A stretch of DNA of 43,971 nt. Source: a virus. The DNA lies in the IMG/VR virus record IMGVR_UViG_3300046673_000032, positions 1 to 43,971 of that record. One strand, given 5' to 3'. Below are positions 2,614-43,190 of this stretch, piece after piece. Under the pieces are notes generated by a model that was given only the letters and a program-made list of their open reading frames with translations, had not been told where the DNA came from and ran no database searches. The position numbers and the translations under genes were made by a program. Every line of letters starts with the position of its first letter. The stretch's first letter is position 1.

Positions 2614-3047
2614 AAGTCGATCACCTTATTCGCCAGCTTCTTATACCTATTCTGGGCTTTATCCAGCAACATCCCAAAATCTAACGTTATATTCGTGTCA
2701 CCGTTATGCCCGTTTTTATATCTCGCATCCCTTGCCGCCAACAACCTCAGCAACAAATCATTGTCGTGCTTGTGTATCGTCTTCACCGCGGTTCCGTTCG
2801 CATCATACGTCACTTCATCATACCCATTCATCGCCCTATTCTTCAGTTCAGTCTCATAAAACTCTATCTGTAATTCCAGCGCCCTCTTATACCCGTCCTG
2901 AGCCTCAATATTATCTGCCCGTATGTGATCGTAATCCTGAACCGTTATCCCTGATTTTTTACACGCTTCTGTAACCGTATCACCCAACGCAATACGTTTC
3001 TCCACCTCAACATACGGTTCGTTATTCAGGAATCCATCTAATCCCAT
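2610..3047 (-). CDS. Probable terminase small subunit
   Basis: This 145-residue acidic and basic helical protein lies directly upstream of terL and overlaps it by 4 bases. Residues about 12-45 (RIALGDTVTEACKKSGI, then VQDYDHIRA) read like a helix-turn-helix of the kind used by small terminase subunits to recognise the packaging site. The following helices (ELQIEFYETELKNRAMNGYD) would form the oligomerisation core. Gene order is the main support: the small subunit normally precedes the large one. Sequence conservation in this family is too low for certainty by eye. Confidence 0.65.
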   Translation of the reverse strand: MGLDGFLNNEPYVEVEKRIALGDTVTEACKKSGITVQDYDHIRADNIEAQDGYKRALELQIEFYETELKNRAMNGYDEVTYDANGTAVKTIHKHDNDLLLRLLAARDARYKNGHNGDTNITLDFGMLLDKAQNRYKKLANKVIDL

Positions 3048-3229
3048 TATTTAACCTCTTTTACGGGTTCAACCATAAAATCCGCCATCTTCACTCCCTT
3101 CACCTTAATCCCTCCTTCCAACAACATATCCACTGTCACTACCTTCTTATTCTCTCCCTTAAATATCCCCAGACGATTCCTAAACACCGGATTTACACTC
3201 GGCAAATCTCTGATCTTTACATATTTCAT
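3047..3229 (-). CDS. Small hypothetical protein (60 aa)
   Basis: The gene runs from ATG 3229 to a stop that overlaps the next ATG by one base (TAATG), so it sits in the same translationally linked leftward chain as the terminase genes. The protein is short, basic and Val/Lys-rich (ENKKVVTVDMLLEGGIKVKG) with no Cys or membrane segment. No family was recognised. Position suggests an accessory to DNA packaging or simply a small early or late gene of the terminase operon. Confidence 0.65.
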   Translation of the reverse strand: MKYVKIRDLPSVNPVFRNRLGIFKGENKKVVTVDMLLEGGIKVKGVKMADFMVEPVKEVK

Positions 3230-3492
3230 TTAATCAATCCTTTCGTAATTAAATCCGATACGTGCAACCTTACCCTCTGCCATGCCGCATCCAACCACGC
3301 TTTGCTCGGACTCCCAAACGTCAACAACTGTCCCTTCTTCAAGTCATGCTTCATCACATACGCACCCGTCAAACACACTACCCCATACTTCTCACACAAC
3401 CCCTTAAACTCTCGGTTAAATCGTTCTTCTATCTTATGATCCTGCTCTTTCCCATAACTGTCAGGCAACCACAACTTCTTTTCAATCTCCAT
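3226..3492 (-). CDS. Small hypothetical protein (about 88 aa)
   Basis: The preferred start is ATG 3492 (MEIEKKLWLPDSYGKEQ), because AAGGAG lies 7 bases upstream of it; an in-frame ATG at 3510 has no such site. The protein is charged, with no Cys pair and no membrane helix. A central GVVCLTGAYVMKHDLKKGQ and a C-terminal WLDAAWQRVRLHVSDLI segment suggest a small folded alpha/beta protein. It overlaps both neighbours by a few bases, so it is part of a coupled gene chain. No family was recognised. Confidence 0.7.
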   Translation of the reverse strand: MEIEKKLWLPDSYGKEQDHKIEERFNREFKGLCEKYGVVCLTGAYVMKHDLKKGQLLTFGSPSKAWLDAAWQRVRLHVSDLITKGLIK

Positions 3493-3688
3493 CAATTCTC
3501 TCCTTTTCAATCATATATAACGCATCACCAGTGTTGCGATGTTTCACTTCCTTAACTCTTTTAACCCTTACTTCACCAATAAACCAATAGCTTGTGGGTC
3601 CACACTTTCTACATTCCATACACCCATATTTCCCATCTTCACTAACAACCTCTTTCAACTCTAAAAAACACTTCGGGCAAGTTTTCAT
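3482..3688 (-). CDS. Zinc-ribbon small protein (68 aa)
   Basis: The first gene of the leftward block. It carries two Cys pairs, CPKC at residues 4-7 and CMECRKC at about 24-30, spaced as in a small treble-clef or zinc-ribbon protein, followed by a basic region (RVKRVKEVKHR) that could contact nucleic acid. ATG 3688 has no good Shine-Dalgarno sequence, so it may be read from a leaderless or weakly initiated message. Function unknown; a nucleic-acid or protein-protein adaptor is the usual role of such small phage zinc proteins. Confidence 0.65.
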   Translation of the reverse strand: MKTCPKCFLELKEVVSEDGKYGCMECRKCGPTSYWFIGEVRVKRVKEVKHRNTGDALYMIEKERIDGD

Positions 3689-4070
3689 TATTCAACTATA
3701 TAATATAATGTTCTTGACAAGAATAGTTTCAAAAAATAGATGTACAGAATTTTTCATCCCCTTTCCGCGCGCGCGCCAAAAAGCCGGGGGTAGGGGGTGC
3801 CCAAAGGTATATATGTCATGAAATATATATCACACACACCAACAACTATACAATCACACACCCAAACTCCATAACCAGCAATAATACCCCTCAATTTTTC
3901 GATTCTACGATACACCCATACCAGTACACCACCTATATATACTAAAACGTTTTAGATCTAATCCTGGTGCAATATTTGCACACCCTCCAACACCCGATAA
4001 CCCCCATTGGGACGTAAACCCACAATTTCACCATTTTCATCAATATCAATAATATTCTTGATTATGACAT

Positions 4071-4431
4071 GTTACGTGCTGTTTTTTTTGAAATAATTAT
4101 TTAATGACAAATTATCAAACCCGACAAATATAAAAAAATATTTTTTCGATTATTCTCTATATAGTATGTGTGTCCTTTTGTTACGGGTTCCATGCGTAAC
4201 GTTTCACCTCGTCCGTTACACCTAAACTCCGCATAGAATATAGTTGTAACGGGTGCAACGTCTATATTTCCTATTAAACATAAAAATCTATGTATACAAT
4301 TTGTAAATCGTGTTTTTAAATTGTTAGGGTAAATATATCACATTTTTACCTTATATAGTCAAAACAGGCGTAACACGCGTACATTAGTTGCCTGTCATGT
4401 TTTTAGGCGTAACAAACGTCTAAAATGTTAC
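4071..4431. repeat. Cluster of GTAAC/GTTAC words, possible iterons or operators
   Basis: The 5-base word GTAAC or its complement GTTAC occurs eight times in about 360 bases: near 4071, 4180, 4196, 4215, 4246, 4370, 4409 and 4427. Under one occurrence would be expected by chance in such a length. Two copies are part of a perfect 10-base direct repeat AGGCGTAACA at 4366-4375 and 4405-4414, 39 bases apart. Others form inverted pairs, for example GTTACG 4180-4185 with CGTAAC 4195-4200. This is what binding sites for a replication initiator or repressor look like, but no binding protein is identified. Confidence 0.5.
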
Positions 4432-4572
4432 ACCAGAATTTTTCTAGACAAATTAACGTTAAACGTTGAATACATGAATTTATGTATATAATGTTAACAA
4501 AACAATTTTTGACATAGATTTACATCGTGTAAACCGCATTGTTAAGTAATTTAACACTTTCTAGACAGTTTG

Positions 4573-4601
4573 TTGACACATTGTATACCAACGTCAATAA
4601 T
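4573..4601 (+). promoter_or_regulatory. Sigma-70-type promoter for the rightward block
   Basis: TTGACA at 4573-4578, a 17-base spacer, and AATAAT at 4596-4601: a perfect -35 and five of six -10 positions at ideal spacing. Transcription would start near 4608, leaving a leader of about 150 bases before the first gene at 4756. The leader contains a tandem repeat and an inverted pair CGTGCC (4602-4607) / GGCACG (4656-4661) that could be an operator or an RNA structure. Confidence 0.65.
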
Positions 4602-4628
4602 CGTGCCATGCGTATTTCGTTGTGATAT

Positions 4629-4648
4629 ATAGTAAATCATAGTAAATC
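4629..4648. repeat. Tandem 10-bp repeat downstream of the promoter
   Basis: ATAGTAAATC occurs twice back to back (4629-4638 and 4639-4648), just downstream of the promoter at 4573-4601 and between the two arms of the CGTGCC/GGCACG inverted pair. It may be a regulator-binding site; no protein is assigned. Confidence 0.5.
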
Positions 4649-4755
4649 AGGGTTTGGCACGGGCATTGCATACAGAAACAACCAGTTGACGAGATGTAAA
4701 CCCAGCCCCGGGGAAAAGGGGACGTCGCCGGGCGTAAAACGAGGGAGAAAATTAA

Positions 4756-6480: not shown

Positions 6481-6689
6481 AATATATTTTGACCTTGGTT
6501 GTTGGGCTGGGGTTGGTTGTATTTGTTATCCACGACCATCAACCCCATTGGGAAGGTCCGAGCAGTTGCCCATTAACAATCGTTTTGGACATTGCAGGGG
6601 AAACAGCCAACGAGTATGCCGATAACGTTGAACATGCGATTAACCGCATTGAAAAATTAGGGTACTCCGTTGACCTAGTAGACCGTTGA
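6477..6689 (+). CDS. Small membrane or exported protein (70 aa)
   Basis: The chosen start ATG 6477 overlaps the stop of the mini-ORF upstream; another in-frame ATG lies at 6444. The first 20 residues (MKYILTLVVGLGLVVFVIHD) are a hydrophobic helix, either a membrane anchor or an uncleaved signal. The rest is acidic and soluble (IAGETANEYADNVEHAINRI). Its last bases carry the -35 of the next promoter. The function is unknown; small anchored proteins of this sort often act on the host membrane. Confidence 0.6.
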   Translation: MKYILTLVVGLGLVVFVIHDHQPHWEGPSSCPLTIVLDIAGETANEYADNVEHAINRIEKLGYSVDLVDR

Positions 6690-6714
6690 CATTATGGTGA
6701 CAGTGTGAGATAAT
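6686..6714 (+). promoter_or_regulatory. Strong promoter upstream of the Ala-rich gene array
   Basis: TTGACA at 6686-6691, a 17-base spacer and GATAAT at 6709-6714, with TG at 6706-6707 giving an extended -10. This is the best promoter match in the block. It would start transcription near 6721, just before the AAAAAGGAG ribosome site of the gene at 6738, and so feed the following chain of overlapping genes including all seven Ala-rich paralogues. Confidence 0.7.
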
Positions 6715-6871: not shown

Positions 6872-7030
6872 ATGACCGACGAATACGCAGAGAGACTTGA
6901 TGTCGCAAAGACTCTACTCCGTCACGCCGGGAACGAGCTGGAATATGGCTCGGTTACCGACGCGCTGGGCACGATTCGGATGGTTGAAAAAATACTCGTG
7001 AGGCTCAAAAAAATGGAGGCGAAGAAGTGA
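6872..7030 (+). CDS. Small hypothetical helical protein (52 aa)
   Basis: ATG 6872 follows two bases after the preceding stop. The protein is a helical hairpin by pattern (YAERLDVAKTLLRHAGNELE, then a turn, then ALGTIRMVEKILVRLKKMEA). This Ala/Leu/Arg pattern resembles a small coiled-coil dimer. It overlaps the following GTG-started gene by 4 bases. Function unknown. Confidence 0.65.
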   Translation: MTDEYAERLDVAKTLLRHAGNELEYGSVTDALGTIRMVEKILVRLKKMEAKK

Positions 7031-7191
7031 ACCAGGGACTTGCAGTATTTCCGGAGATGTCGCCGGAAGTCGTGAAAGGTTTGACCGCTCCGACCGTTGC
7101 GGCGAGGGCGGCGTCGAGGGCGGAGATGGCGGCGTCGAGGGCGGCGAGGGCGGCGGCGGAACGTAAATGGCAGGCCGACCGAATCCGATAA
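7027..7191 (+). CDS. Truncated/chimeric Ala-rich copy ahead of the array (54 aa)
   Basis: GTG 7027 overlaps the previous stop. The first 24 residues (MNQGLAVFPEMSPEVVKGLT...) are unrelated to the array genes. Then comes a short Ala-rich run and KWQADRIR, the common C-terminal tail of the array. The frame stops one residue later at TAA 7189-7191, where the intact copies read GAG: a single G-to-T change removes the last ten residues (EIVENPWG plus two). The Ala-rich part matches the end of the third copy (8293-8832). It therefore looks like the 3' remnant of an array gene fused to a foreign 5' end, possibly still translated. Confidence 0.55.
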   Translation: MNQGLAVFPEMSPEVVKGLTAPTVAARAASRAEMAASRAARAAAERKWQADRIR

Positions 7192-7217
7192 ATTGTTGAA
7201 AACCCCTGGGGGACGAA

Positions 7218-7730
7218 ATGAACGCAAAAGACCTGAAAAAACTGGAATCGCTGAACCCATGCGCTGACGGGTCGGCGTGGGGAAAAACTCAGAACTCACT
7301 GTACGACGTGTATGAAAACTGCGAGCGCGGAGATTGGATGATCTGGCTCCTGAGCCGTTCCAAAAAACTCACGAAAACTCAGGCGATAGAAATCGCGATC
7401 ACGTGCGCGAAACATGTGTATCACGACCCGGATTGGAACCGATGGGCGGATGCGTGGCTGGACGGATCGGATCGAGCCAAGGCGAGTGCGGAGATGGCGG
7501 CGAGGGCGGCGAGGGCGGCGTATTGGGCGGCGAGGGCGTCGAGTGTGGCGAGTGCGTCGAGTGTGGCGAGTGCGTCGAGTGCGGCGAGGGCGGCGAGTGC
7601 GGCGAGTGCGGCGAGTGCGTCGAGTGCGGCGTATTGGGCGGCGAGGGCGGCGTGGGTGCCGAGTGCGGCGATAAAATGGCAGGCCGACCGAATCCGAGAA
7701 ATTGTTGAAAACCCCTGGGGGACGAAATGA
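7218..7730 (+). CDS. Ala-rich array protein, copy 1 (170 aa)
   Basis: The conserved N-terminal domain (residues 1-88) has MNAKDLKKLESLNPCADG, SLYDVYENCERGDWMIWLL, ITCAKHVYHDPDWNRWADAW and LDGSDRAKAS. Residues about 89-148 are an Ala-rich run of AAX triplets with inserted YW and WVP. The C-terminal tail KWQADRIREIVENPWG closes the protein. The N-terminal RGDWMIWLL and CAKHV features recall a widespread uncharacterised family of Ala-rich phage and bacterial proteins with an RGDWMLWL-type motif (from memory). No signal peptide or catalytic motif is present. Its stop overlaps copy 2 by 4 bases. A long helical rod is the likely fold of the repeat; the role is unknown. Confidence 0.85.
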   Translation: MNAKDLKKLESLNPCADGSAWGKTQNSLYDVYENCERGDWMIWLLSRSKKLTKTQAIEIAITCAKHVYHDPDWNRWADAWLDGSDRAKASAEMAARAARAAYWAARASSVASASSVASASSAARAASAASAASASSAAYWAARAAWVPSAAIKWQADRIREIVENPWGTK

Positions 7731-8296
7731 ACCCAACTGATCTGAAAATCCTTGAGGACATGAGCCCATGCGCTGACGGGTCGGCGTGGGGAAAAACCCA
7801 GAACTCACTGCACGACGTGTACGAAAATTGCGAGCGCGGAGATTGGATGATCTGGCTCCTGGGTCATTCCAAAAAAATCACGAAAACTCAGGCAATCGAG
7901 ATCGCGATAGTGTGCGCGAAACATGTGTATCACGACCCGGATTGGAACCGATGGGCGGATGCGTGGCTGGACGGATCGGATCGAGCCAAGGCGAGTGCGG
8001 AGATGGCGGCGAGGGCGGCGAGTGCGGCGGATTGGGCGGCGTATTGGGCGTCGAGTGCGGCGGCGTGGGCGGCGGCGTGGGCGGAGAGTGCGGCGGAGAG
8101 TGCGGCGGATTGGACGGCATGTGCGGAGATGGCGGCGAGGGCGGCGAGTGCGGCGAGTGCGTCGTGGGAGGCGAGTGCGGAGATGGCGGCGAGGGCGGAG
8201 AGTGCGGCGAGTGCGTCGTGGGAGGCGAGTGCGGAGATAAAATGGCAGGCCGACCGAATCCGAGAAATTGTTGAAAACCCCTGGGGGACGAAATGA
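7727..8296 (+). CDS. Ala-rich array protein, copy 2 (189 aa)
   Basis: This unit has the same design as the other array genes: N-terminal domain beginning MNPTDLKILEDMSPCADG, then an Ala-rich run at about residues 89-167, then the common tail. The N-terminal residues differ from copy 1 (KILEDM instead of KKLESL), so at least two N-terminal types alternate in the array. Its repeat ends in a visible 18-residue tandem duplication (MAARAASAASASWEASAE repeated with one change, A to E), which is 54 bases at the DNA level. Trp is frequent (WAAYW, AWAAAWA). Start and stop overlap the neighbours by ATGA, and the ribosome site GGGGGACGAA lies within the tail codons of copy 1. Confidence 0.85.
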   Translation: MNPTDLKILEDMSPCADGSAWGKTQNSLHDVYENCERGDWMIWLLGHSKKITKTQAIEIAIVCAKHVYHDPDWNRWADAWLDGSDRAKASAEMAARAASAADWAAYWASSAAAWAAAWAESAAESAADWTACAEMAARAASAASASWEASAEMAARAESAASASWEASAEIKWQADRIREIVENPWGTK

Positions 8297-8832
8297 ACGC
8301 AAAAGACCTGAAAAAACTGGAATCGCTGAACCCATGCGCGGACGGGTTGGCGTGGGGAAAAACCCAGGAGTCACTACACGACGTGTACGAAAATTGCGAG
8401 CGCGGAGATTGGATGATCTGGCTCCTGGGTCATTCCAAAAAAATCACGAAAACTCAGGTGATAGAAATCGCGATCACGTGCGCGAAACATGTGTATCACG
8501 ACCCGGATTGGAACCGATGGGCGGATGCGTGGCTGGACGGATCGGATCGAACCAAGGCGAGTGCGTCGAGTGCGTCGAGTGCGGCGAGTGCGGCGTATTG
8601 GGCGGCGAGTTCGGCGATGGCGGCGTATTGGGCGGCGAGGGCGGCGTGGTCGGCGAGGGCGGCGAGTGCGGCGAGGGCGTTGGAGTGGGCGGAGATGGCG
8701 GCGGAGAGTGCGGCGAGGGCGGCGTCGAGGGCGGAGATGGCGGCGTCGAGGGCGGCGAGGGCGGCGGCGGAACGTAAATGGCAGGCTGACCGAATCCGAG
8801 AAATTGTTGAAAACCCCTGGGGGACGAAATGA
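8293..8832 (+). CDS. Ala-rich array protein, copy 3 (179 aa)
   Basis: The N-terminal type is KDLKKLESLN with QESLHDVYENC and the LLGHSKKITKTQVIEI variant of the middle. The Ala-rich run spans about residues 89-158 and ends RAEMAASRAARAAAERKW, the same ending found in the truncated copy at 7027-7191, so the remnant derives from a gene like this one. It is the only full copy whose run passes into the tail through ERKW rather than EIKW or AIKW. The gene is coupled to both neighbours by 4-base overlaps. Confidence 0.85.
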   Translation: MNAKDLKKLESLNPCADGLAWGKTQESLHDVYENCERGDWMIWLLGHSKKITKTQVIEIAITCAKHVYHDPDWNRWADAWLDGSDRTKASASSASSAASAAYWAASSAMAAYWAARAAWSARAASAARALEWAEMAAESAARAASRAEMAASRAARAAAERKWQADRIREIVENPWGTK

Positions 8833-9329
8833 ACGCAAAAGACCTGAAAAAACTGGAATCGCTGAACCCATGCGCTGACGGGCTGGCGTGGGGAAAAACT
8901 CAGAACTCACTGCACGACGTGTACGAAAACTGTGAGCGCGGAGATTGGATGATCTGGCTCCTGGGTCATTCCAAAAAAATCACGAAAACTCAGGTGATAG
9001 AAATCGCGATCACGTGCGCGAAACATGTGTATCACGACCCGGATTGGAACCGATGGGCGGATGCGTGGCTGGACGGATCGGATCGAACCAAGGCGAGTGC
9101 GGCGAGTGCGGCGAATGCGGCGAGTGCGGCGTGGGTGCCGAGTGCGGCGAGTGCGGCGGAGAGGGCGGCGTATTGGGCGGCGAGTGCGTCGAGTGCGGCG
9201 AGTGCGGCGTGTTGGGCGTGTTGGGCGGCGTGTTGGGCGTATTGGGCGGCGAGTGCGTCGAGTGCGGAGATAAAATGGCAGGCCGACCGAATCCGAGAAA
9301 TCGTGAAAAATCCATGGGGGACGAAATGA
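8829..9329 (+). CDS. Ala-rich array protein, copy 4 (166 aa)
   Basis: Together with copy 5 this is the shortest full unit. The run after residue 88 begins AASAANAASAAWVPSAAS and contains a Cys/Trp-rich patch, ACWACWAACWAYWAA, absent from copies 1-3. Cys at regular spacing on an Ala helix could allow disulphides or metal binding, or may be a by-product of GCGTGTTGG repeat units. The tail reads IVKNPWG instead of IVENPWG. Ends overlap the neighbours by ATGA. Confidence 0.85.
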   Translation: MNAKDLKKLESLNPCADGLAWGKTQNSLHDVYENCERGDWMIWLLGHSKKITKTQVIEIAITCAKHVYHDPDWNRWADAWLDGSDRTKASAASAANAASAAWVPSAASAAERAAYWAASASSAASAACWACWAACWAYWAASASSAEIKWQADRIREIVKNPWGTK

Positions 9330-9826
9330 ACGCAACTGATCTGAAAATCCTTGAGGACATGAACCCATGCGCTGACGGGCTGGCGTGGGGAAAAACTCAG
9401 AACTCACTGCACGACGTGTACGAAAACTGTGAGCGCGGAGATTGGATGATCTGGATCCTGATTCGTTCCAAAAAACTCACGAAAACTCAGGCAACCGAGA
9501 TCGCAATCACGTGCGCAAAACATGTGTATCACGATCCGGATTGGAACCGATGGGCGGATGCGTGGCTGGACGGATCGGATCGAACCAAGGCGAGTGCGGC
9601 GAGTGCGGCGAATGCGGCGAGTGCGGCGTGGGTGCCGAGTGCGGCGAGTGCGGCGGAGAGGGCGGCGTATTGGGCGGCGAGTGCGTCGAGTGCGGCGAGT
9701 GCGGCGTGTTGGGCGTGTTGGGCGGCGTGTTGGGCGTATTGGGCGGCGAGTGCGTCGAGTGCGGAGATAAAATGGCAGGCCGACCGAATCCGAGAAATCG
9801 TGAAAAATCCATGGGGGACGAAATGA
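9326..9826 (+). CDS. Ala-rich array protein, copy 5 (166 aa)
   Basis: The start is set at ATG 9326 by the ATGA overlap with copy 4; the frame is open upstream but that part is out-of-frame repeat of copy 4. From about residue 88 to the end it matches copy 4 in length and repeat order, while the N-terminal domain is of the ATDLKILEDMN type with WILIRSKKLTKTQATEI in the middle. It is therefore a recent duplicate with an exchanged front half. The stop overlaps copy 6. Confidence 0.85.
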   Translation: MNATDLKILEDMNPCADGLAWGKTQNSLHDVYENCERGDWMIWILIRSKKLTKTQATEIAITCAKHVYHDPDWNRWADAWLDGSDRTKASAASAANAASAAWVPSAASAAERAAYWAASASSAASAACWACWAACWAYWAASASSAEIKWQADRIREIVKNPWGTK

Positions 9827-10371
9827 ACGCAACTGATCTGAAAATCCTTGAGGACATGAACCCATGCGCGGACGGGTTGGCGTGGGGAAAAACCCAGGAG
9901 TCACTACACGACGTGTACGAAAATTGCGAGCGCGGAGATTGGATGATCTGGCTCCTGGGTCATTCCAAAAAAATCACGAAAACTCAGGTGATAGAAATCG
10001 CGATCACGTGCGCGAAACATGTGTATCACGACCCGGATTGGAACCGATGGGCGGATGCGTGGCTGGACGGATCGGATCGAACCAAGGCGAGTGCGGCGAG
10101 TGCGGCGAATGCGGCGAGTGCGGCGTGGGTGCCGAGTGCGGCGAGTGCGGCGGAGAGGGCGGCGTATTGGGCGGCGAGTGCGTCGAGTGCGGCGAGGGCG
10201 GCGAGGGCGGCGGCGAGTGCGGCGAGTGCGGCGAATGCGGCGAGTGCGGCGAGTGCGGAGTATTGGGCGGCGAGTGCGGCGTATTGGGCGTATTGGGCGG
10301 CGAGGGCGGAGATAAAATGGCAGGCCGACCGAATTAGGGAGATCGTTGAAAACCCATGGGGGAAAAAATGA
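9823..10371 (+). CDS. Ala-rich array protein, copy 6 (182 aa)
   Basis: The start ATG 9823 overlaps the stop of copy 5. The N-terminal domain combines ATDLKILEDMN (as copies 2 and 5) with QESLHDVYENC and LLGHSKKITKTQVIEI (as copy 3), a clear mosaic. The Ala-rich run starts as in copies 4 and 5 (AANAASAAWVPSAASAAERAAYW) but continues with new units (ARAARAAASAASAANAAS) and loses the Cys patch. The tail ends NPWGKK rather than NPWGTK, which also changes the ribosome site of the next gene to GGGGGAAAAA. Confidence 0.85.
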   Translation: MNATDLKILEDMNPCADGLAWGKTQESLHDVYENCERGDWMIWLLGHSKKITKTQVIEIAITCAKHVYHDPDWNRWADAWLDGSDRTKASAASAANAASAAWVPSAASAAERAAYWAASASSAARAARAAASAASAANAASAASAEYWAASAAYWAYWAARAEIKWQADRIREIVENPWGKK

Positions 10372-10964
10372 ACGCAAAAGACCTGAAAAAACTGGAATCG
10401 CTGAACCCATGCGCTGACGGGCTGGCGTGGGGAAAAACTCAGAACTCACTGCACGACGTGTACGAAAACTGTGAGCGCGGAGATTGGATGATCTGGATCC
10501 TGATTCGTTCCAAAAAACTCACGAAAACTCAGGTGATAGAAATCGCGATCACGTGCGCGAAACATGTGTATCACGATCCGGATTGGGACCGATGGGCGGA
10601 TGCGTGGCTGGACGGATCGGATCGAACCAAGGCGAGTGCGGAGAGTGCGGCGAATGCGGCGAGTGCGGCGTGGGTGCCGAGTGCGGCGAGTGCGGCGTAT
10701 TGGGCGGCGAGTGCGGCGAGTGCGGCGGAGTGGGCGGCGTATTGGGCGGCGTATTGGGCGGCGAGGGCGGCGGAGAGGGCGGCGTATTGGGCGGCGAGGG
10801 CGGCGAGGGCGGCGGCGAGTGCGTCGAGTGCGGCGAGTGCGTCGAGTGCGTCGAGTGCGGAGTATTGGGCGGCGAGTGCGGCGTATTGGGCGGCGAGGGC
10901 GGAGATAAAATGGCAGGCCGACCGAATTAGGGAGATCGTTGAAAACCCATGGGGGAAAAAATGA
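10368..10964 (+). CDS. Ala-rich array protein, copy 7 (198 aa)
   Basis: This is the longest copy. The start ATG 10368 follows GGGGGAAAAA and overlaps copy 6; an ATG at 10356 in the same frame is less likely. The N-terminal domain is KDLKKLESLN with WILIRSKKLTKTQVIEI, and Asn in DPDWNRW is replaced by Asp (DPDWDRW). The Ala-rich run has the highest number of YWAA insertions and a Ser-rich patch (SASSAASASSASSAEYW). The tail is as in copy 6. The unrelated gene that follows is started within the same kind of junction, so it inherited the array ribosome site. Confidence 0.85.
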   Translation: MNAKDLKKLESLNPCADGLAWGKTQNSLHDVYENCERGDWMIWILIRSKKLTKTQVIEIAITCAKHVYHDPDWDRWADAWLDGSDRTKASAESAANAASAAWVPSAASAAYWAASAASAAEWAAYWAAYWAARAAERAAYWAARAARAAASASSAASASSASSAEYWAASAAYWAARAEIKWQADRIREIVENPWGKK

Positions 10965-11188
10965 ACCGACACCTTAAGCCTCGTTTGGCAACAGTCGAGG
11001 AACTAATCCAGACGCTCGTAGTTGACTGTCAGGTCCAACTTACGATTGATTTGTTCGGAGGAGAAATTTCTTGTGATGGAGTTTGGACCCCCGAAAACTG
11101 TAAATGCACCATAAAAAAAGAGTTTCACGTGATCGGGAAAACGGTTAGTGACGCATTGCAGAAAGCCATCAAGGAGGTTAGTGAATGA
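10961..11188 (+). CDS. Hypothetical protein after the array (75 aa)
   Basis: The start ATG 10961 (MNRHLKPRLATVEELIQ) overlaps the stop of array copy 7 and uses its GGGGGAAAAA ribosome site. The protein is a small alpha/beta fold by pattern, with three Cys (VVDCQ, EISCDG, NCKCT) and a C-terminal helix (VSDALQKAIKEVSE). Its last codons carry AAGGAGGT, the ribosome site of the next gene. No family was recognised. Confidence 0.7.
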   Translation: MNRHLKPRLATVEELIQTLVVDCQVQLTIDLFGGEISCDGVWTPENCKCTIKKEFHVIGKTVSDALQKAIKEVSE

Positions 11189-11883: not shown

Positions 11884-13922
11884 TCTTTAAACCACCTTCT
11901 GCGCGACGATCCTTCCACTCTCCTAACCTGCTGATCGAATCCAATATTGTGCATGATCTGGCCGATTCTCTTTTGAATAATTCCGTTCATTTTGTCTATG
12001 GTAATATTTAAGGCGCCATCGGCTATCTCTGAAGTGGTCAATCCGTACTCATCTCTATATCTTTCGCTAACCATTTTACTAATGGCTTCTTCCCATTCGT
12101 CATGTATCGTTCTTAAGTCTTGTTCTGCTTTAGTTTCTTCCAACGGAACATTAAACCACTTTTCACCAGACTTGTATCTTTTGACCGCTTCCGCAAACAA
12201 TTGATCCCGATCTTTTTTCAAATCTTCAACATTTATTCTTGAAACCCTTATAGGCCAAAACCTTCTATTGCCTGTTGTATCCTTAAAATAATGCTTTTCA
12301 TTGGTGGTTCCCGCAAATATACATTGGCGTGGATGCTCGGAAGCGTGTCTTCCATATTTTTCCCTATAACGATCCGATTGAGTGGTAAGCATGGCTTTAA
12401 TTTTAGTTGCTTCGGCCTTTCCAAATGATTCCATTTCTGCAATTTCGGCAATCATTTTTCCTTGAAACACTTCATAGAAATCATTAGACATGACTGATTC
12501 GGTTAAAGATACATACCATTTTCCTCCAATGATTCTTAACGACATGGTTTTAAATGTTTCTTGTTTTCCTTCAAGAATTACCATGTTATCAACTTTACAT
12601 CCTGGGTCAAAGATTCGAGCAACCATTGAAATCCAGAAATTCTTGCTTATCGCTTGGGCATAATATCCGCGTTTGCATCCAAAATAATCAGCAAAGAAAC
12701 CATCGAGGCGTTCGTTCCCATCCCACACAAGTGATTCCATCCAGTCTTTCGGTTCATTTCTGGAGTTTTTGTGAGCATAAATATAAATCGCTTGAAACGC
12801 CATCTCAGTCGAAAACTTTGTTATCCCCAGGCGTCGCTGTAATTCCAAAACTATTTTATATGTGTCAAGGTCGGACCATTCTTCGGGTTCTCCGTACAAA
12901 GACGTGAAAACCTTATTGTGAAATTCATCCCACCATATTTTCCCTTCAAAAGACTTGTCACCGTCCAATACGCGAAGCCCGTTGTCCAGGTTAGCAAACG
13001 GCACTCCGTGACCGTTTCTGGAAATACTTAGCTCATCCCAAATGACGTTTAAAGAAACCGTAGGCTTGAGTTCGTCAATCGGTTCTGATACATAAGTTGT
13101 AATTAATGGACTTGCCCATTCAACAAAATTTTCATAAGTCATGCCTTCGTTTAAAGCGTCTGCGGCGTCCCATTTTGATGGTTTGTCTTTGGGATTAAGT
13201 ATTTTAATGTCTTCGCAATCTCTAGATAAAATACCGGCAATGTCTTGGGCGGCTTTTTTACCCGGTTCATCAGCGTCGGGCCAAATCAGAATTTTTCGCC
13301 CTTTTAGAACGGACCAATCGTTCTTATAAACGCTGTTTGCTCCATGACTCCATGTGGTAACGAGACACGTTGACCCCATTATTTTACGGCAAGCGTCTGC
13401 GGATTTTTCGCCTTCGACCACAACCACGGATGCAGTTGGATTTAAGGACAGGATGTCTAACCCGTATAGCGGTCGTGGCTCTGGATAAGCTTTGGCTGTC
13501 CACTTTCCATCAACCAAGTGGTATGGAGTGTATTGCTTTCCCTGAGCAGTTTCCCGGCGAGTCACGTAAAATAATGCGTTTCCATTCTTATCGTTATATT
13601 TCCAAAACAATCCTTTGGGTTTGAATTCTTGAATTTCTTGATGTTTTGAAGGCGATAACCTTTCTGCGGCTTCGCCCTGTTTAATATTGTGTATTGCGGC
13701 GTATAACGAAATCAAATCTCCACCGCGAACCTCTGAATTCGCATGATCCATCCATTGTCCAGTTTCAATGTTTACACATAGCGATTTACCGTTTCCACCT
13801 TTTAAATCAGAGCAAACGTATTCTTTTCCCTGAAATTTTCCTCCAGGAAGCCATTCGGGCAGTAAATTTCTTGAGTTAGACGCGAGTTCCCATGCAAGGG
13901 ATTGAAAGTCTATTTTAGGCAA
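11880..13922 (-). CDS. Primase-helicase with Toprim and VirE-type ATPase
   Basis: A 680-residue replication protein. Residues 1-60 resemble a primase zinc-domain region without an obvious Cys set. The Toprim domain has VVVVEGEKSADA at 166-177 and ILIWPDADEPG at 211-221, giving the catalytic Glu and the DxD pair. The ATPase half has EGKQETFKT at 451-459 in the Walker A place, Walker B MIAEIAEME at about 490-498, sensor IFAGTTNE at 535-542 and the family hallmark TGNRRFWPI at 550-558. The Walker A loop departs from the usual GKQG.GKST. It probably primes and unwinds phage DNA for a host polymerase. The start must be TTG 13922, because an in-frame TAA lies two codons upstream and no early ATG exists. 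Confidence 0.9.
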   Translation of the reverse strand: MPKIDFQSLAWELASNSRNLLPEWLPGGKFQGKEYVCSDLKGGNGKSLCVNIETGQWMDHANSEVRGGDLISLYAAIHNIKQGEAAERLSPSKHQEIQEFKPKGLFWKYNDKNGNALFYVTRRETAQGKQYTPYHLVDGKWTAKAYPEPRPLYGLDILSLNPTASVVVVEGEKSADACRKIMGSTCLVTTWSHGANSVYKNDWSVLKGRKILIWPDADEPGKKAAQDIAGILSRDCEDIKILNPKDKPSKWDAADALNEGMTYENFVEWASPLITTYVSEPIDELKPTVSLNVIWDELSISRNGHGVPFANLDNGLRVLDGDKSFEGKIWWDEFHNKVFTSLYGEPEEWSDLDTYKIVLELQRRLGITKFSTEMAFQAIYIYAHKNSRNEPKDWMESLVWDGNERLDGFFADYFGCKRGYYAQAISKNFWISMVARIFDPGCKVDNMVILEGKQETFKTMSLRIIGGKWYVSLTESVMSNDFYEVFQGKMIAEIAEMESFGKAEATKIKAMLTTQSDRYREKYGRHASEHPRQCIFAGTTNEKHYFKDTTGNRRFWPIRVSRINVEDLKKDRDQLFAEAVKRYKSGEKWFNVPLEETKAEQDLRTIHDEWEEAISKMVSERYRDEYGLTTSEIADGALNITIDKMNGIIQKRIGQIMHNIGFDQQVRRVEGSSRRRWFKE

Positions 13923-16236: not shown

Positions 16237-17160
16237 GTGAGCGAGATAATCAAGTCTAACCCAAAAATCACGTCTGGAAAAAGAAAAGAGCCGTTGACTA
16301 TTATGTTGTATGGCGTTGCTGGTATCGGTAAAACGCAACTAGCTTCTGAATCCGAAAATCCAATTTTCATCGGAGAACGCGGAAATTTGCTTTTGGACGT
16401 TTCCCGCTTTGACGAAGAAAAAACATTTGCGGAGTTTGTCGAAGACATCAAATGGTTGATTGAAAATGAACACATTTACAAAACTCTTGTGATTGACACT
16501 CTTAGCTGGCTTGAGCCTTTAGTGTTCCAAGAAGTATGTTCTGAGCAAACAAAACCAGCCAAAGACATTTCAAAGGTGCCACACGGTGCCGGTTACATTT
16601 CGGCTTATACAAAGATGGAAAGCGTCACAAAGCTTTTGAATGATCTTAAAGATAAGAAAAAAATGAACGTTGTGATTATTGCTCATTCAAAAGTTAAGCC
16701 ATTTAATGATCCCACTTCGATTGAACCATACGATAAATACGTTCCTTCGTTGAACGAAGCCATTTCCGCAATATGGGTCAAGTACGTCGATGCCCTCATC
16801 TTTATGAACTACGAAACGTTTGTAAAAGAGGGAGAACGACGGGCTTATGGAGACGCGCTTCGTATTGCTTACACCGAAGAACGTCCTTCATTCCAAGCTA
16901 AAAACCGTTACGGGTTGCCTTATCGAATTGCCATGCGCAAAGGGGAGGGATGGAAAACTCTAGTTGAAGCGATTGAAAAATCAGAACCAAACAGTCTGGA
17001 AGTGTTGCAACGAGCCGTTGCCGAATTGCGAAAGACAATTTCAGGGGAGCCTGAATTTTTGTCTAAGGTTGATAAGTCAATTGCCGATGCCGGTGTGGAT
17101 TTGACTAAGTTGACGGCCATTCGCGACCGGATGGTTGCATTAACGGGAGGGTTAAAGTGA
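16237..17160 (+). CDS. Sak4-like RecA-fold ATPase (phage recombinase type)
   Basis: A 307-residue ATP-binding protein of the AAA_24/Sak4 type: Walker A GVAGIGKT at 26-33, Walker B TLVIDTLSWL at 83-92, and NVVIIAHSK at about 144-152, which may hold the sensor region. In phages, such proteins sit with SSB-like and exonuclease genes and promote single-strand annealing recombination. The start is GTG 16237 with AAGGAG 7 bases upstream. It is first in the rightward recombination operon and overlaps the next gene. Confidence 0.85.
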   Translation: MSEIIKSNPKITSGKRKEPLTIMLYGVAGIGKTQLASESENPIFIGERGNLLLDVSRFDEEKTFAEFVEDIKWLIENEHIYKTLVIDTLSWLEPLVFQEVCSEQTKPAKDISKVPHGAGYISAYTKMESVTKLLNDLKDKKKMNVVIIAHSKVKPFNDPTSIEPYDKYVPSLNEAISAIWVKYVDALIFMNYETFVKEGERRAYGDALRIAYTEERPSFQAKNRYGLPYRIAMRKGEGWKTLVEAIEKSEPNSLEVLQRAVAELRKTISGEPEFLSKVDKSIADAGVDLTKLTAIRDRMVALTGGLK

Positions 17161-17489: not shown

Positions 17490-17983
17490 GAATCAAGCCC
17501 GGAACATACCCTGGTACGTTGACTGATTATGGAATCTCAGAAACCAAGGCCGGTGATCCTCAAGTGTTTCTGATATTCGACGTAAACGCAGGAGATCAAG
17601 GCAATTACAGTATGACTTGGTACGGGTTAATGAATACCGTTGCTAAGGAATCCGGAAAGAAAGCTCCAATCGAATACACGATCAAGACCATTCTTGATTG
17701 CGGATTCTCTGGTGAGTCTCCTGAGCTTCTTGCGGCTGGACCTGAGTCTAATTTGATGCCGTTGGGCATTGCAATGGATTTACGGGTCGAAGACAATACC
17801 TACGATGGTACTACAACCAGCAGAATCAGGTTTGTAAACGTTCCTGGTCAAGGTGGTGGACCTGGACGAGTAGGATATGAGGAGGTAACTAAGAAGGTAA
17901 GCGTTGATGCTATCCGCGCCGAATTGATTAAGCAACGCGCTAACCGTCCACATGTAGAAAAAAAACAAGATGTAGGGTGGTGA
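17486..17983 (+). CDS. Putative ssDNA-binding protein (DUF669-like)
   Basis: A 165-residue protein starting MRIKPGTYPGTLTDYGISET with an OB-fold-like beta pattern (VFLIFDVNAG, YSMTWYGLM, LRVEDNTYDG, SRIRFVNVPG) and a Gly-rich loop at about residues 121-128. Phage recombination operons usually have an SSB or DUF669 protein between the ATPase and the exonuclease, and this gene fits in place and shape. Binding to ssDNA is not shown by a diagnostic motif. ATG 17486 follows GAGAAGGAG. Confidence 0.6.
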   Translation: MRIKPGTYPGTLTDYGISETKAGDPQVFLIFDVNAGDQGNYSMTWYGLMNTVAKESGKKAPIEYTIKTILDCGFSGESPELLAAGPESNLMPLGIAMDLRVEDNTYDGTTTSRIRFVNVPGQGGGPGRVGYEEVTKKVSVDAIRAELIKQRANRPHVEKKQDVGW

Positions 17984-17985
17984 GT

Positions 17986-18558
17986 ATGTACCAACTAATC
18001 GAGGTGGATCAAAACACACCCGCTTGGTTGGATTGGCGCAAGAACGGCATAGGGGCCTCAGACGCCCCCGCCGTTCTGGGCGTCAGCCCGTATACCAAGC
18101 CTCAAAAGCTTTGGGCAATCAAGGTTGGAATGGATGTAGATAAACCAGTAAACAAATACATCATGGATAAGGGCCATGATTTTGAAACCCGTATTCGAGC
18201 TAAATACGAGTTTGAATCAGAAGGTAATTGGCCTTCGGTTTGCATGCAATCGGTTGAATTTCCATACTTAAGGGCTTCGTTGGACGGATGGAACGGTAAA
18301 AATATCATCGAAATTAAGATGGTTGGAGCAAAGATGTTTGCTTCTGATGATATACCGCCTCACCATTACGCTCAATTTCAGCATCAAATGATGGTTTCTG
18401 ATGCCGAAGACATGACCGAGATTTACGGTTTGATTGACGAGTTTAACGAACTCAAAGACAAGAAACGTCTCGTTGTTCGCGACGAAAAGTTTATTGATGC
18501 CATGTTTCACAAAGAAGTGGAGTTTTGGAAGATGGTTACGGATAAGGAGTGGAGATGA
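17986..18558 (+). CDS. YqaJ-type viral exonuclease/recombinase
   Basis: A lambda-Exo-related PD-(D/E)XK enzyme of 190 residues. WLDWRKNGIGASDAPAVLG (residues 14-32) is the family signature; Glu67 in GHDFE, Asp100 in ASLDG and Glu109-Lys111 in IIEIKM build the active site, and YAQFQHQMMV gives the conserved Gln/His helix. It would resect DNA ends for the annealing ATPase. The start could be GTG 17980 or ATG 17986; ATG was chosen with AGGGTGGTGAGT as ribosome site. It overlaps the endolysin start by 4 bases. Confidence 0.92.
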   Translation: MYQLIEVDQNTPAWLDWRKNGIGASDAPAVLGVSPYTKPQKLWAIKVGMDVDKPVNKYIMDKGHDFETRIRAKYEFESEGNWPSVCMQSVEFPYLRASLDGWNGKNIIEIKMVGAKMFASDDIPPHHYAQFQHQMMVSDAEDMTEIYGLIDEFNELKDKKRLVVRDEKFIDAMFHKEVEFWKMVTDKEWR

Positions 18559-41208: not shown

Positions 41209-42168
41209 TTAGTATTCCATCCACTCTACGTCGTAATCTATGTATGTATTACCGCCTTCTCCGGTTAACACCCATCCCGAAGGAATTGAAATGCAGAAAT
41301 TTTGTGAAGCTCCTCGAACAATAAAAGGTGCCCTACCGTTGTTATCGTCCCAAACGATTGGTGCTACGGACCAATTACGCAATGAAGCCAAACCGGACGT
41401 TGTGGGAGTAGTCACGGGGAAAATAGTACTCCAAGCAACATCGTAAACTGGTTGAGCCTTGCAAAATGCGTATTCACTAGCTCCAAGATTTGTTCCTGGA
41501 GTAGAAGGGGACGTATAATTGAATGTAATTGCGGCATTTGAAGCGGGAGCGTTAATATCCAATTTGCTAATAGAAGGGTTCACAAAATGCGTCGAAGGCC
41601 CACTATCTGGATTCCTAATAGAAAATTGTATTGGTTGAGAAGTATTCATCGTAGTGTTGGCTACGTTATCGTATTGAAATGCCAGCCTAATCCTTGCAAT
41701 AGCAATAGTCCTATAAGCGCTTCCTGTAATTGTTAGGAAGTGTTGAGATGAAGAAACCGTTCCGCCAGGAAGCGTAGCTTCACCACCCGTAGTATAAACC
41801 CAAGCGTTTTGTGGAACTGGAATAGCGTCCGAAAGAGGTCCAACTGTCCAAGTGTATGTAGGGGTAGAAGTGTATGTGTTTGTCGGAGTATCAGTAGGAC
41901 TAGTACCAGGCCAACCAACAGAAGACGGAGTTTTGGTCGCTGTAAACGTACTTGTGTTTGTAAATGTAGAAGTCGGAGTAAATGTAGGAGTAGGTGTAAA
42001 TTTTGGAAAAATGTTATTATAAGTTTGATTGATAACTACCATAGGAGTAAGTGCGTATACTGGAGTTCCGTTAATGGTACCAATTCCAAACAGACGTTGT
42101 TTAACATTTTGTTCCAACTGGGCATGAGCAGTTCCAGCAATCAGCAACAGCAATAAAAATTTCTTCAT
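41209..42168 (-). CDS. Secreted Thr/Pro-linker protein (319 aa)
   Basis: ATG 42168 is chosen (GAGG 6 bases upstream; a Met four codons earlier lacks a site). MKKFLLLLLIAGTAHA is a canonical Sec signal peptide with AHA cleavage before Gln. A Thr/Pro/Phe-rich linker (residues about 58-105; TPTFTPTSTFTNTS type) joins two parts. The C-terminal beta-rich region (about 120-319; IRNPDSGPSTHFV, NFCISIPSGWVLTGEGGNTY, IDYDVEWMEY) could be a receptor-binding or adhesion domain. It is the last of the signal-peptide set and 9 bases below its neighbour. Confidence 0.75.
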   Translation of the reverse strand: MKKFLLLLLIAGTAHAQLEQNVKQRLFGIGTINGTPVYALTPMVVINQTYNNIFPKFTPTPTFTPTSTFTNTSTFTATKTPSSVGWPGTSPTDTPTNTYTSTPTYTWTVGPLSDAIPVPQNAWVYTTGGEATLPGGTVSSSQHFLTITGSAYRTIAIARIRLAFQYDNVANTTMNTSQPIQFSIRNPDSGPSTHFVNPSISKLDINAPASNAAITFNYTSPSTPGTNLGASEYAFCKAQPVYDVAWSTIFPVTTPTTSGLASLRNWSVAPIVWDDNNGRAPFIVRGASQNFCISIPSGWVLTGEGGNTYIDYDVEWMEY

Positions 42169-42176
42169 GTCTAACC

Positions 42177-43190
42177 TCAAGGTTTAATTTGTAACCAACC
42201 AGTTACAGGCGTAAGCGAAACTCCAATGTAAACAGTCGTGCCAGCACTATTAACGTAAACATCTCCAACACGACGAGGAGCAGGAGTCGGTTGCGCTGAC
42301 CCGGTTTGGGCGGTTGTGGCATTAGTAATTGAATTTGATACATACAACGCGTTTGCGGCGCCATCATTTGTCGATGGAGTAGGAACATTCGTCACCGGAG
42401 CATTGTTACAATCGGTTGATTTTCCATTAAGTAAAACTGAACCATAAGTTGAATTTAACTTTATTCCGCCACCAACAACAACGCTGTCTCCATTCCCTCC
42501 AGTAACTGTTACTGCCGAATAATGCGCAATATTAGAACTAATTAAATTTCCCAAAACATAAACATTTCCGTTGTAAGGCGTGTAATAAACTAACTCGATT
42601 TCATTTCCAAACGAATCAATTTCGTTGGTTTGGATTCTTCCAGAAGACGGAATTCTCAGAGTCAACTGACCATTTAACCATCCCCATTCAACCCCCGGAG
42701 TCGTTACGGGCGTTATCGCCTGTGTCGGAGTAAACGTCGGTGTACTCCAAGTGCCCGTTGGAGTGGGCGTTGCAGTCGGTGTCGCAGTAACCGTAAACGT
42801 CGGAGTCGCAGTCCCGGCATAATACAATAACCGAGGCAACGTTCTAATCGTGTGACCGATAATCAATCCTTGCTTCTGACTCTGAACCGTCCATGTCCCT
42901 TGTGCGTTCGCAGTTGCTATAGTTCCTCGCCGAACCGTTACTGAATTATTATTACCGGAACTAACCCAAACCGGCTCAATGTATTTATCCAAACCTTTGT
43001 TGTAAGGAACATTTCCTGAAATGATAGAAGCCCCATAAGCTCCACTAGGAACGGGAGTGGTTGTAGGAACAAAAATAATAGTCTGAGCCGAGTCAACTCC
43101 ATAAATCAAAGAAGTGGAGTTGCTAGGGACTGGGTATGTCTGAGCATTAGCCGAACACGCTAAGATAAAAAACAGTAACATTTTTTTCAT
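42177..43190 (-). CDS. Secreted Thr/Pro-linker protein, paralogue of the 141-1100 gene (337 aa)
   Basis: MKKMLLFFILACSANA is a Sec signal peptide with ANA cleavage before QTYP. Residues 17-120 are alike to those of the 141-1100 protein. A Thr/Pro-rich linker follows (about 127-165). The C-terminal part has NGKSTDCNNAPVTNVPTPST, then DGAANALYVSNSI and RRVGDVYVNSAGTTVYIGVS, a tail-fibre-style end. It may form trimers that are displayed at the surface. AAGGGGAACG precedes ATG 43190. Confidence 0.75.
   Translation of the reverse strand: MKKMLLFFILACSANAQTYPVPSNSTSLIYGVDSAQTIIFVPTTTPVPSGAYGASIISGNVPYNKGLDKYIEPVWVSSGNNNSVTVRRGTIATANAQGTWTVQSQKQGLIIGHTIRTLPRLLYYAGTATPTFTVTATPTATPTPTGTWSTPTFTPTQAITPVTTPGVEWGWLNGQLTLRIPSSGRIQTNEIDSFGNEIELVYYTPYNGNVYVLGNLISSNIAHYSAVTVTGGNGDSVVVGGGIKLNSTYGSVLLNGKSTDCNNAPVTNVPTPSTNDGAANALYVSNSITNATTAQTGSAQPTPAPRRVGDVYVNSAGTTVYIGVSLTPVTGWLQIKP

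Follow-up and report, generated by a model that had tools for sequence, protein, structure and literature searches.

Hypervariable, repetitive regions enclosed by constant ends are known from single phage proteins. In gp54 of mycobacteriophage Tweety, an alanine-rich (Ala-rich) core of 15-48 tetrapeptides lies between constant ends, an arrangement that was likened to variable region 2 (VR2) of Bordetella phage BPP-1 (PMC2884959). Escape mutants of Tweety, which overcome the defence of prophages, have gained or lost Ala-rich tetrapeptide repeats in gp54, and its repeat numbers are held to tune it to different prophages, according to later reviews (PMC9262239; PMC8549241). The VR2-type protein of BPP-1, Bbp36, is given as non-essential and not linked to tropism in the passage of PMC2884959 that cites Liu 2004, and we found in the literature no function assigned to BPP-1 VR2, which was described in 2004. 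A further point of comparison is provided by the polyimmunity loci of bacteria, which, in the part of the original account that defines them, are tandem, same-strand and tightly spaced paralogues, probably expressed from one message, without a toxin gene and with a gene number that varies between strains (Zhang 2012, PMC3482391). Here we analyse an IMG/VR virus record of 43,971 nucleotides (nt), IMGVR_UViG_3300046673_000032, referred to as the window over its full length, in which positions 7218-10964 hold seven tandem genes for Ala-rich proteins. We tentatively propose that this array is a multiplexed relative, in architecture, of the single-copy systems.

Reading of the open reading frames (ORFs) in the window gave seven intact, tandem genes encoding proteins of 166-198 amino acids (aa), and a small ORF after them, as follows.

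7218-7730, + strand: copy 1, 170 aa, core of 62 aa
7727-8296, + strand: copy 2, 189 aa, core of 81 aa
8293-8832, + strand: copy 3, 179 aa, core of 71 aa; an AlphaFold2-modelled copy
8829-9329, + strand: copy 4, 166 aa, core of 58 aa, the same as that of copy 5
9326-9826, + strand: copy 5, 166 aa, core of 58 aa; only the head distinguishes it from copy 4
9823-10371, + strand: copy 6, 182 aa, core of 74 aa; initial 110 nt of the core as in copies 4 and 5
10368-10964, + strand: copy 7, 198 aa, core of 90 aa
10961-11188, + strand: small ORF, joined to copy 7 by translational coupling (ORF reading)

Each protein is composed of a head of 88 aa, in which 69 of 88 columns are invariant when the seven copies are aligned, an Ala-rich core of 58-90 aa, and a nearly constant tail of 20 aa. 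Stop and start codons overlap as ATGA at all array junctions, with GGGGGACGAA or GGGGGAAAAA just before, and the codons for PWGTK/PWGKK contain GGGGGA, a stretch of Shine-Dalgarno type for the gene that follows; the small ORF after copy 7 is joined by the same type of overlap. An earlier, sequence-only reading of this DNA had described seven translationally coupled paralogues with constant heads and tails, and both the ORF coordinates and the junctions agree with it. Its hypervariable middles stand as regards the shuffling of length and order, but not for copies 4 and 5, whose cores are identical over 174 nt, which leaves six core versions rather than seven.

The heads were then compared site by site. 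First, they contain 31 biallelic informative sites, and all four gametes are present in 249 of 465 site pairs; incompatibility grows with distance, such that close sites agree more than distant ones (permutation p=2e-4), which is a mark of recombination. Second, a comparison by blocks showed exact identity switching from partner to partner: copies 4 and 5 match in core and tail, yet 24 head sites differ between them; copies 3 and 6 have 11 differing sites in head nt 1-48 and none in nt 49-264; and copies 4, 5 and 6 are identical over core nt 1-110. The heads are best read as mosaics from recombination or gene conversion. Third, head codon differences summed over pairs were 149 synonymous versus 174 non-synonymous, which, set against the roughly three non-synonymous per synonymous of an unconstrained gene, suggests in a rough way that the head is under moderate constraint. 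Two candidate partners for such recombination are encoded in the window, namely:

16237-17160, + strand: Sak4-like single-stranded DNA annealing protein (phrog_124, E 4.7e-43)
17977-18558, + strand: RecE-like recombination exonuclease (phrog_434, E 3.5e-40)

The place of the array is taken by another gene in a sibling phage, IMGVR_UViG_3300037132_000065 (L088), which has 95% nt identity to the window over 8.3 kilobases (kb) adjoining this slot. Its slot content is a 341-aa protein with GTATAGxx repeats, which matches phrog_18079 (E 5.8e-98) and is homologous to Bbp36 of BPP-1. The left border of the slot is formed by a promoter-like site and a leader ORF, similarity fading at about 6830, and on the right the two alleles rejoin within a short stretch. 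The features involved are:

6686-6714, + strand: promoter-like site TTGACA-17-tGATAAT (11/12, extended -10; a consensus match alone), upstream of the cassette and kept in L088
6738-6869, + strand: 43-aa leader ORF with GTG start, kept in L088 save its end
6872-7030, + strand: small ORF, found on the array allele only
7027-7217, + strand: broken eighth copy, in which the 5' end of ORF 7027-7191 is foreign, a partial core and tail being kept
10986-11017, + strand: right border, 32 base pairs, where array and Bbp36-type alleles rejoin; equals L088 13738-13769 (- strand) with 2 mismatches
L088 13792-14817, - strand: GTATAG-repeat, Bbp36/VR2-type gene in the array slot

The broken eighth copy has lost its head, its core and tail have 78 exact nt in common with copy 3, and its ORF is ended by a nonsense TAA in the tail where the other copies have GAA. 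As for VR2, the region measures 330 nt in the phage record of BPP-1, 498 nt in BMP-1 and 474 nt in BIP-1, that is, versions several 24-nt units apart. One slot is used by two proteins that are unrelated in sequence but alike in design, each having an in-frame hypervariable repeat between a constant head and a constant tail; they differ in that one is built on the 8-residue GTATAGxx unit and is present in single copy, whereas the other is built on an Ala helix and is present in seven. Near the same slot, L088 also has a GGTCAC-type hexamer microsatellite in which several frames are open (12555-12790, - strand).

The array recurs in other contigs, in the same form. Contigs L001-L004 carry all seven copies with 99.9% identity to the window, and L005, which starts within the common core of copies 4/5, equals the window exactly across copies 6 and 7. 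L001 and L002 are identical, as are L003 and L004, so that these are maybe not independent samples, and the array contigs possibly come from related ones. Because of these five further contigs, together with the clean slot of the sibling, the array does not appear to be a one-off assembly error. Among array-bearing contigs none was seen with a differing copy number, and within the array the sole contig-to-contig differences are seven substitutions in 26 nt of copy 7:

10534-10559, + strand: 7-nt patch, where copy 7 of L001-L004 has the copy 5 sequence

For this patch gene conversion is the simple account, and it may also be an assembly chimera.

How, then, does the array compare with gp54? In both, a GC-rich, Ala-rich repeat core of varying number lies between constant ends, with variation in Trp, Tyr and Ser that falls chiefly on codon positions 1 and 2, and in both the protein is dispensable or absent in relatives. 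The differences are that gp54 is one copy with 15-48 tetrapeptides, whereas the array has seven copies with irregular cores, and that gp54 is retuned by mutation, whereas several versions coexist in the array. By this analogy, our preferred explanation, to which we give somewhat less than an even chance, is that the array provides, in multiplex, counter-defence proteins which are tuned by their repeats and diversified by recombination. These would be small, cytosolic phage proteins with a constant helical head, a variable helical core on an Ala scaffold and a constant helical tail, and their early expression is suggested by the promoter-like site and by their position. The length of the core and its non-Ala pattern would set which partner fits, like the Ala-rich repeat number in gp54, and defence complexes of the host or of prophages are, we infer, the likely targets. 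Heads and cores would be shuffled among the tandem copies through recombination between repeats, probably helped by the phage's own Sak4/RecE recombinases, and one message with translational coupling would yield all versions simultaneously.

Anti-defence proteins with many targets had been one of several earlier suggestions, and it now has an experimental precedent in gp54 and a Bbp36/VR2-type slot-exchange partner. What is observed directly is the anatomy and the diversification of the array; its function would follow by analogy. A diversified set with constant ends had also been suspected, which is supported by the mosaic heads and shuffled cores, and by the amino-acid bias of the cores and in-frame indels in relatives given below. 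That the array had not been described holds for its seven-copy form, which we did not find elsewhere, but not for its design, since single-copy proteins of this kind have been described since 2004-2007; and the claim of nothing comparable was too strong, as repeat-number tuning has been described since 2017.

The head belongs to a widespread, uncharacterised family, as had been supposed. Its motif NCERGDWM(L/I)W(L) recurs in some 26 further contigs of viruses and in ten contigs of bacterial metagenome-assembled genomes, and nearly all members have an Ala-rich core, or reach the contig end inside it, with few exceptions (L030, L017). Their tails are of two kinds, and the KWQADRIREIVENPW kind of the window is also present in L039 and L063. 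Tandem copies in other family contigs number at most two (L009-L011), and no other array of seven-copy size turned up, where breakage of assemblies at repeats may hide some: 12 of 26 family contigs stop less than 1 kb downstream of the head (L007, L010, L011, L012, L015, L018, L019, L022, L025, L026, L027 and L031), versus 1.2 expected. Family cores or arrays thus seem to break assemblies, so copy numbers elsewhere are possibly underestimated. In a Planctomycetota sample, 6 of 392 genomes had the family, in single copy each and without an array, and no relative was found in the plasmids searched. Near the Ala-rich gene, L075 (5805-6311, - strand), L076 and L077 have a second variable-repeat protein, made of INARNINAWDINAGD pentapeptides, in which L075 and L077 are set apart by an indel of 45 nt; other repeat-type proteins are near family members in L056, L061, L062 and L063.

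This family brings in the main rival of the counter-defence reading, which we regard as unlikely, namely that the array is a phage-borne homogeneous polyimmunity locus, whose Imm5-like proteins would neutralise polymorphic toxins made by mobile elements or by competing bacteria and keep the infected cell alive. Seven of ten profile members among the head relatives match Pfam Imm5_like (PF21805) at E <=0.01, and two of ten match Imm5 (PF14423); L029 and L020 reach 37 and 28 bits for PF21805, where the cut-off is 25. These relatives have the NCERGDWM motif followed by an Ala-rich helical region, and hhalign aligned them with the window heads over residues 4-65 (99%, E 4.7e-18), a stretch over which the window head is, on this alignment, homologous to them. 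In its arrangement the array fits the locus definition given in PMC3482391, that of tandem immunity genes in one orientation without toxins. However, the seven window copies and the remnant matched no Pfam family at E up to 1, so that direct membership in Imm5_like, whose cut-off they did not reach, was dropped; the aligned region chiefly precedes the Pfam domain, and past residue 65 the domain is shortened and divergent. Moreover, Imm5 is absent from the families that PMC3482391 lists as forming homogeneous loci, no toxin gene was recognised among the ORFs that were searched, Ala cores that are hypervariable are not stated as a feature of Imm5, and the name 'immunity protein' is a prediction too. 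The known loci are bacterial, unlike the window, which is a phage whose paralogues are much closer to each other and have low-complexity cores that are shuffled. Searches of the copies against PHROGs and NCBIfam gave no match, phrog_18079 included; tail fibre and CobN names (E >0.01) were taken as low-complexity chance matches.

The cores bear on a second alternative, which we hold to be improbable, that is, neutral slippage of low-complexity spacers, with only head and tail being of importance and the seven copies representing a recent duplication that gives dosage. Repetitive DNA readily expands, a broken copy is present, core variation is found in every lineage, and one core is common to copies 4 and 5; these points speak for it. 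It is made less likely by the codon pattern of the cores. First, Ala accounts for 259 of 494 core residues, with GCG encoding 258 of the 259, whereas in the constant parts GCG makes up 37 of 61 Ala codons; codon entropy within amino acids is 0.18 in the cores versus 1.08 in the constant parts, and core codons have G or T in the third position, apart from a single exception. Second, single-nt neighbours of GCG number 27, 28 and 1 at codon positions 1, 2 and 3 (55 amino-acid changing to 1 synonymous), or 10, 15 and 1 if each distinct context is counted once (25 to 1, p=4e-4), meaning that core differences nearly all change the amino acid while synonymous sites are fixed; all seven cores are in frame. 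Third, homologue cores in other phages mostly use a single Ala codon each, but GCC or GCT. This difference between lineages indicates that the cores are re-amplified in each of them, the same protein pattern, in which Tyr, Asp, Ser or Trp are set among Ala at helical spacing, being reached via different codons. In L075, L076 and L077, which are 97-99.7% identical, core indels of 9 and 48 nt are in frame, with hardly any nearby change. Finally, non-Ala residues of the cores show helical periodicity (charged p=0.002, bulky p=0.02), and in Tweety gp54 repeat number alters function.

AlphaFold2 prediction on single copies gave a confident head of six helices (predicted local distance difference test, pLDDT, about 90) and helical cores of low confidence, that of copy 3 being a hairpin. 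A Foldseek search of PDB and BFVD with the model found no fold match, and the head profile found no match among PDB sequences. Predicted helices of graded core length (58-90 aa) between constant ends would also suit adaptors or decoys for one host factor, the copies differing in reach or dose but not in target, and the Tweety authors suggest that the spacing of the N- and C-terminal domains matters. To this third alternative we give less credit again: the cores differ in residue pattern too, not in length alone, and copies 4 and 5 combine one core with different heads. Ala-rich helices have a composition like that of type I antifreeze proteins, and a Bbp36 homologue in phage Mica is annotated as an ice nucleation protein, but the ice- or surface-binding rods of the sequence-only reading found no support and were set aside, together with virion rods, as very improbable, given an array among small early-type genes away from structural genes, heads predicted to be globular and conserved, nearly Thr-free cores (1 of 494 residues) and the lack of a fold match.

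Several results weigh against the counter-defence set itself. L088 is without the array, which is dispensable in at least one background. BLASTP of gp54 against the window proteins gave E values of 17 and 22, with no detectable homology of head or tail, and since the window head is without detectable similarity to gp54, the analogy is architectural only. Fast turnover of units could explain part of the low synonymous diversity of the cores, and the predicted core structures have low pLDDT, namely 41-58 in copy 3 (residues 91-130) and 38-53 in copy 7 (residues 101-170). Other repeat proteins near family members amount to 6 in 234 kb versus 1 in 255 kb, an enrichment that is suggestive but not significant (p=0.06). 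To our knowledge, gp54 is the one experimental case of repeat-tuned counter-defence.

It is possible, though we would lean against it, that the array is a standing, recombination-fed set which provides many specificities per infection, and that, the slot being interchangeable with Bbp36/VR2 genes, VR2 of BPP-1 serves counter-defence too. The array joins two cases, in that sibling phages have in one slot either an Ala-rich array with variable cores or a VR2-type gene, and it would be a step past the tuning of one gene, with many variants carried together. If true, this would offer a testable rule for finding counter-defence genes, namely to look among the early genes of phages for constant ends that flank a hypervariable core kept in frame. 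The array is also a warning that loci of this kind break assemblies made from short reads.

The window as a whole is of podovirus type, with a GP7 capsid protein, a head-tail connector protein and a VapE-type primase besides Sak4 and RecE. Upstream of the array, positions 3050-4700 are AT-rich with few ORFs and a strong GC skew (-0.53 at 3001-4000), a stretch which is closed by a second strong promoter-like site at 4573-4601. Towards the other end, an 18-bp tandem repeat of 2.3 copies is present at 41960-42001, within ORF 41209-42180.

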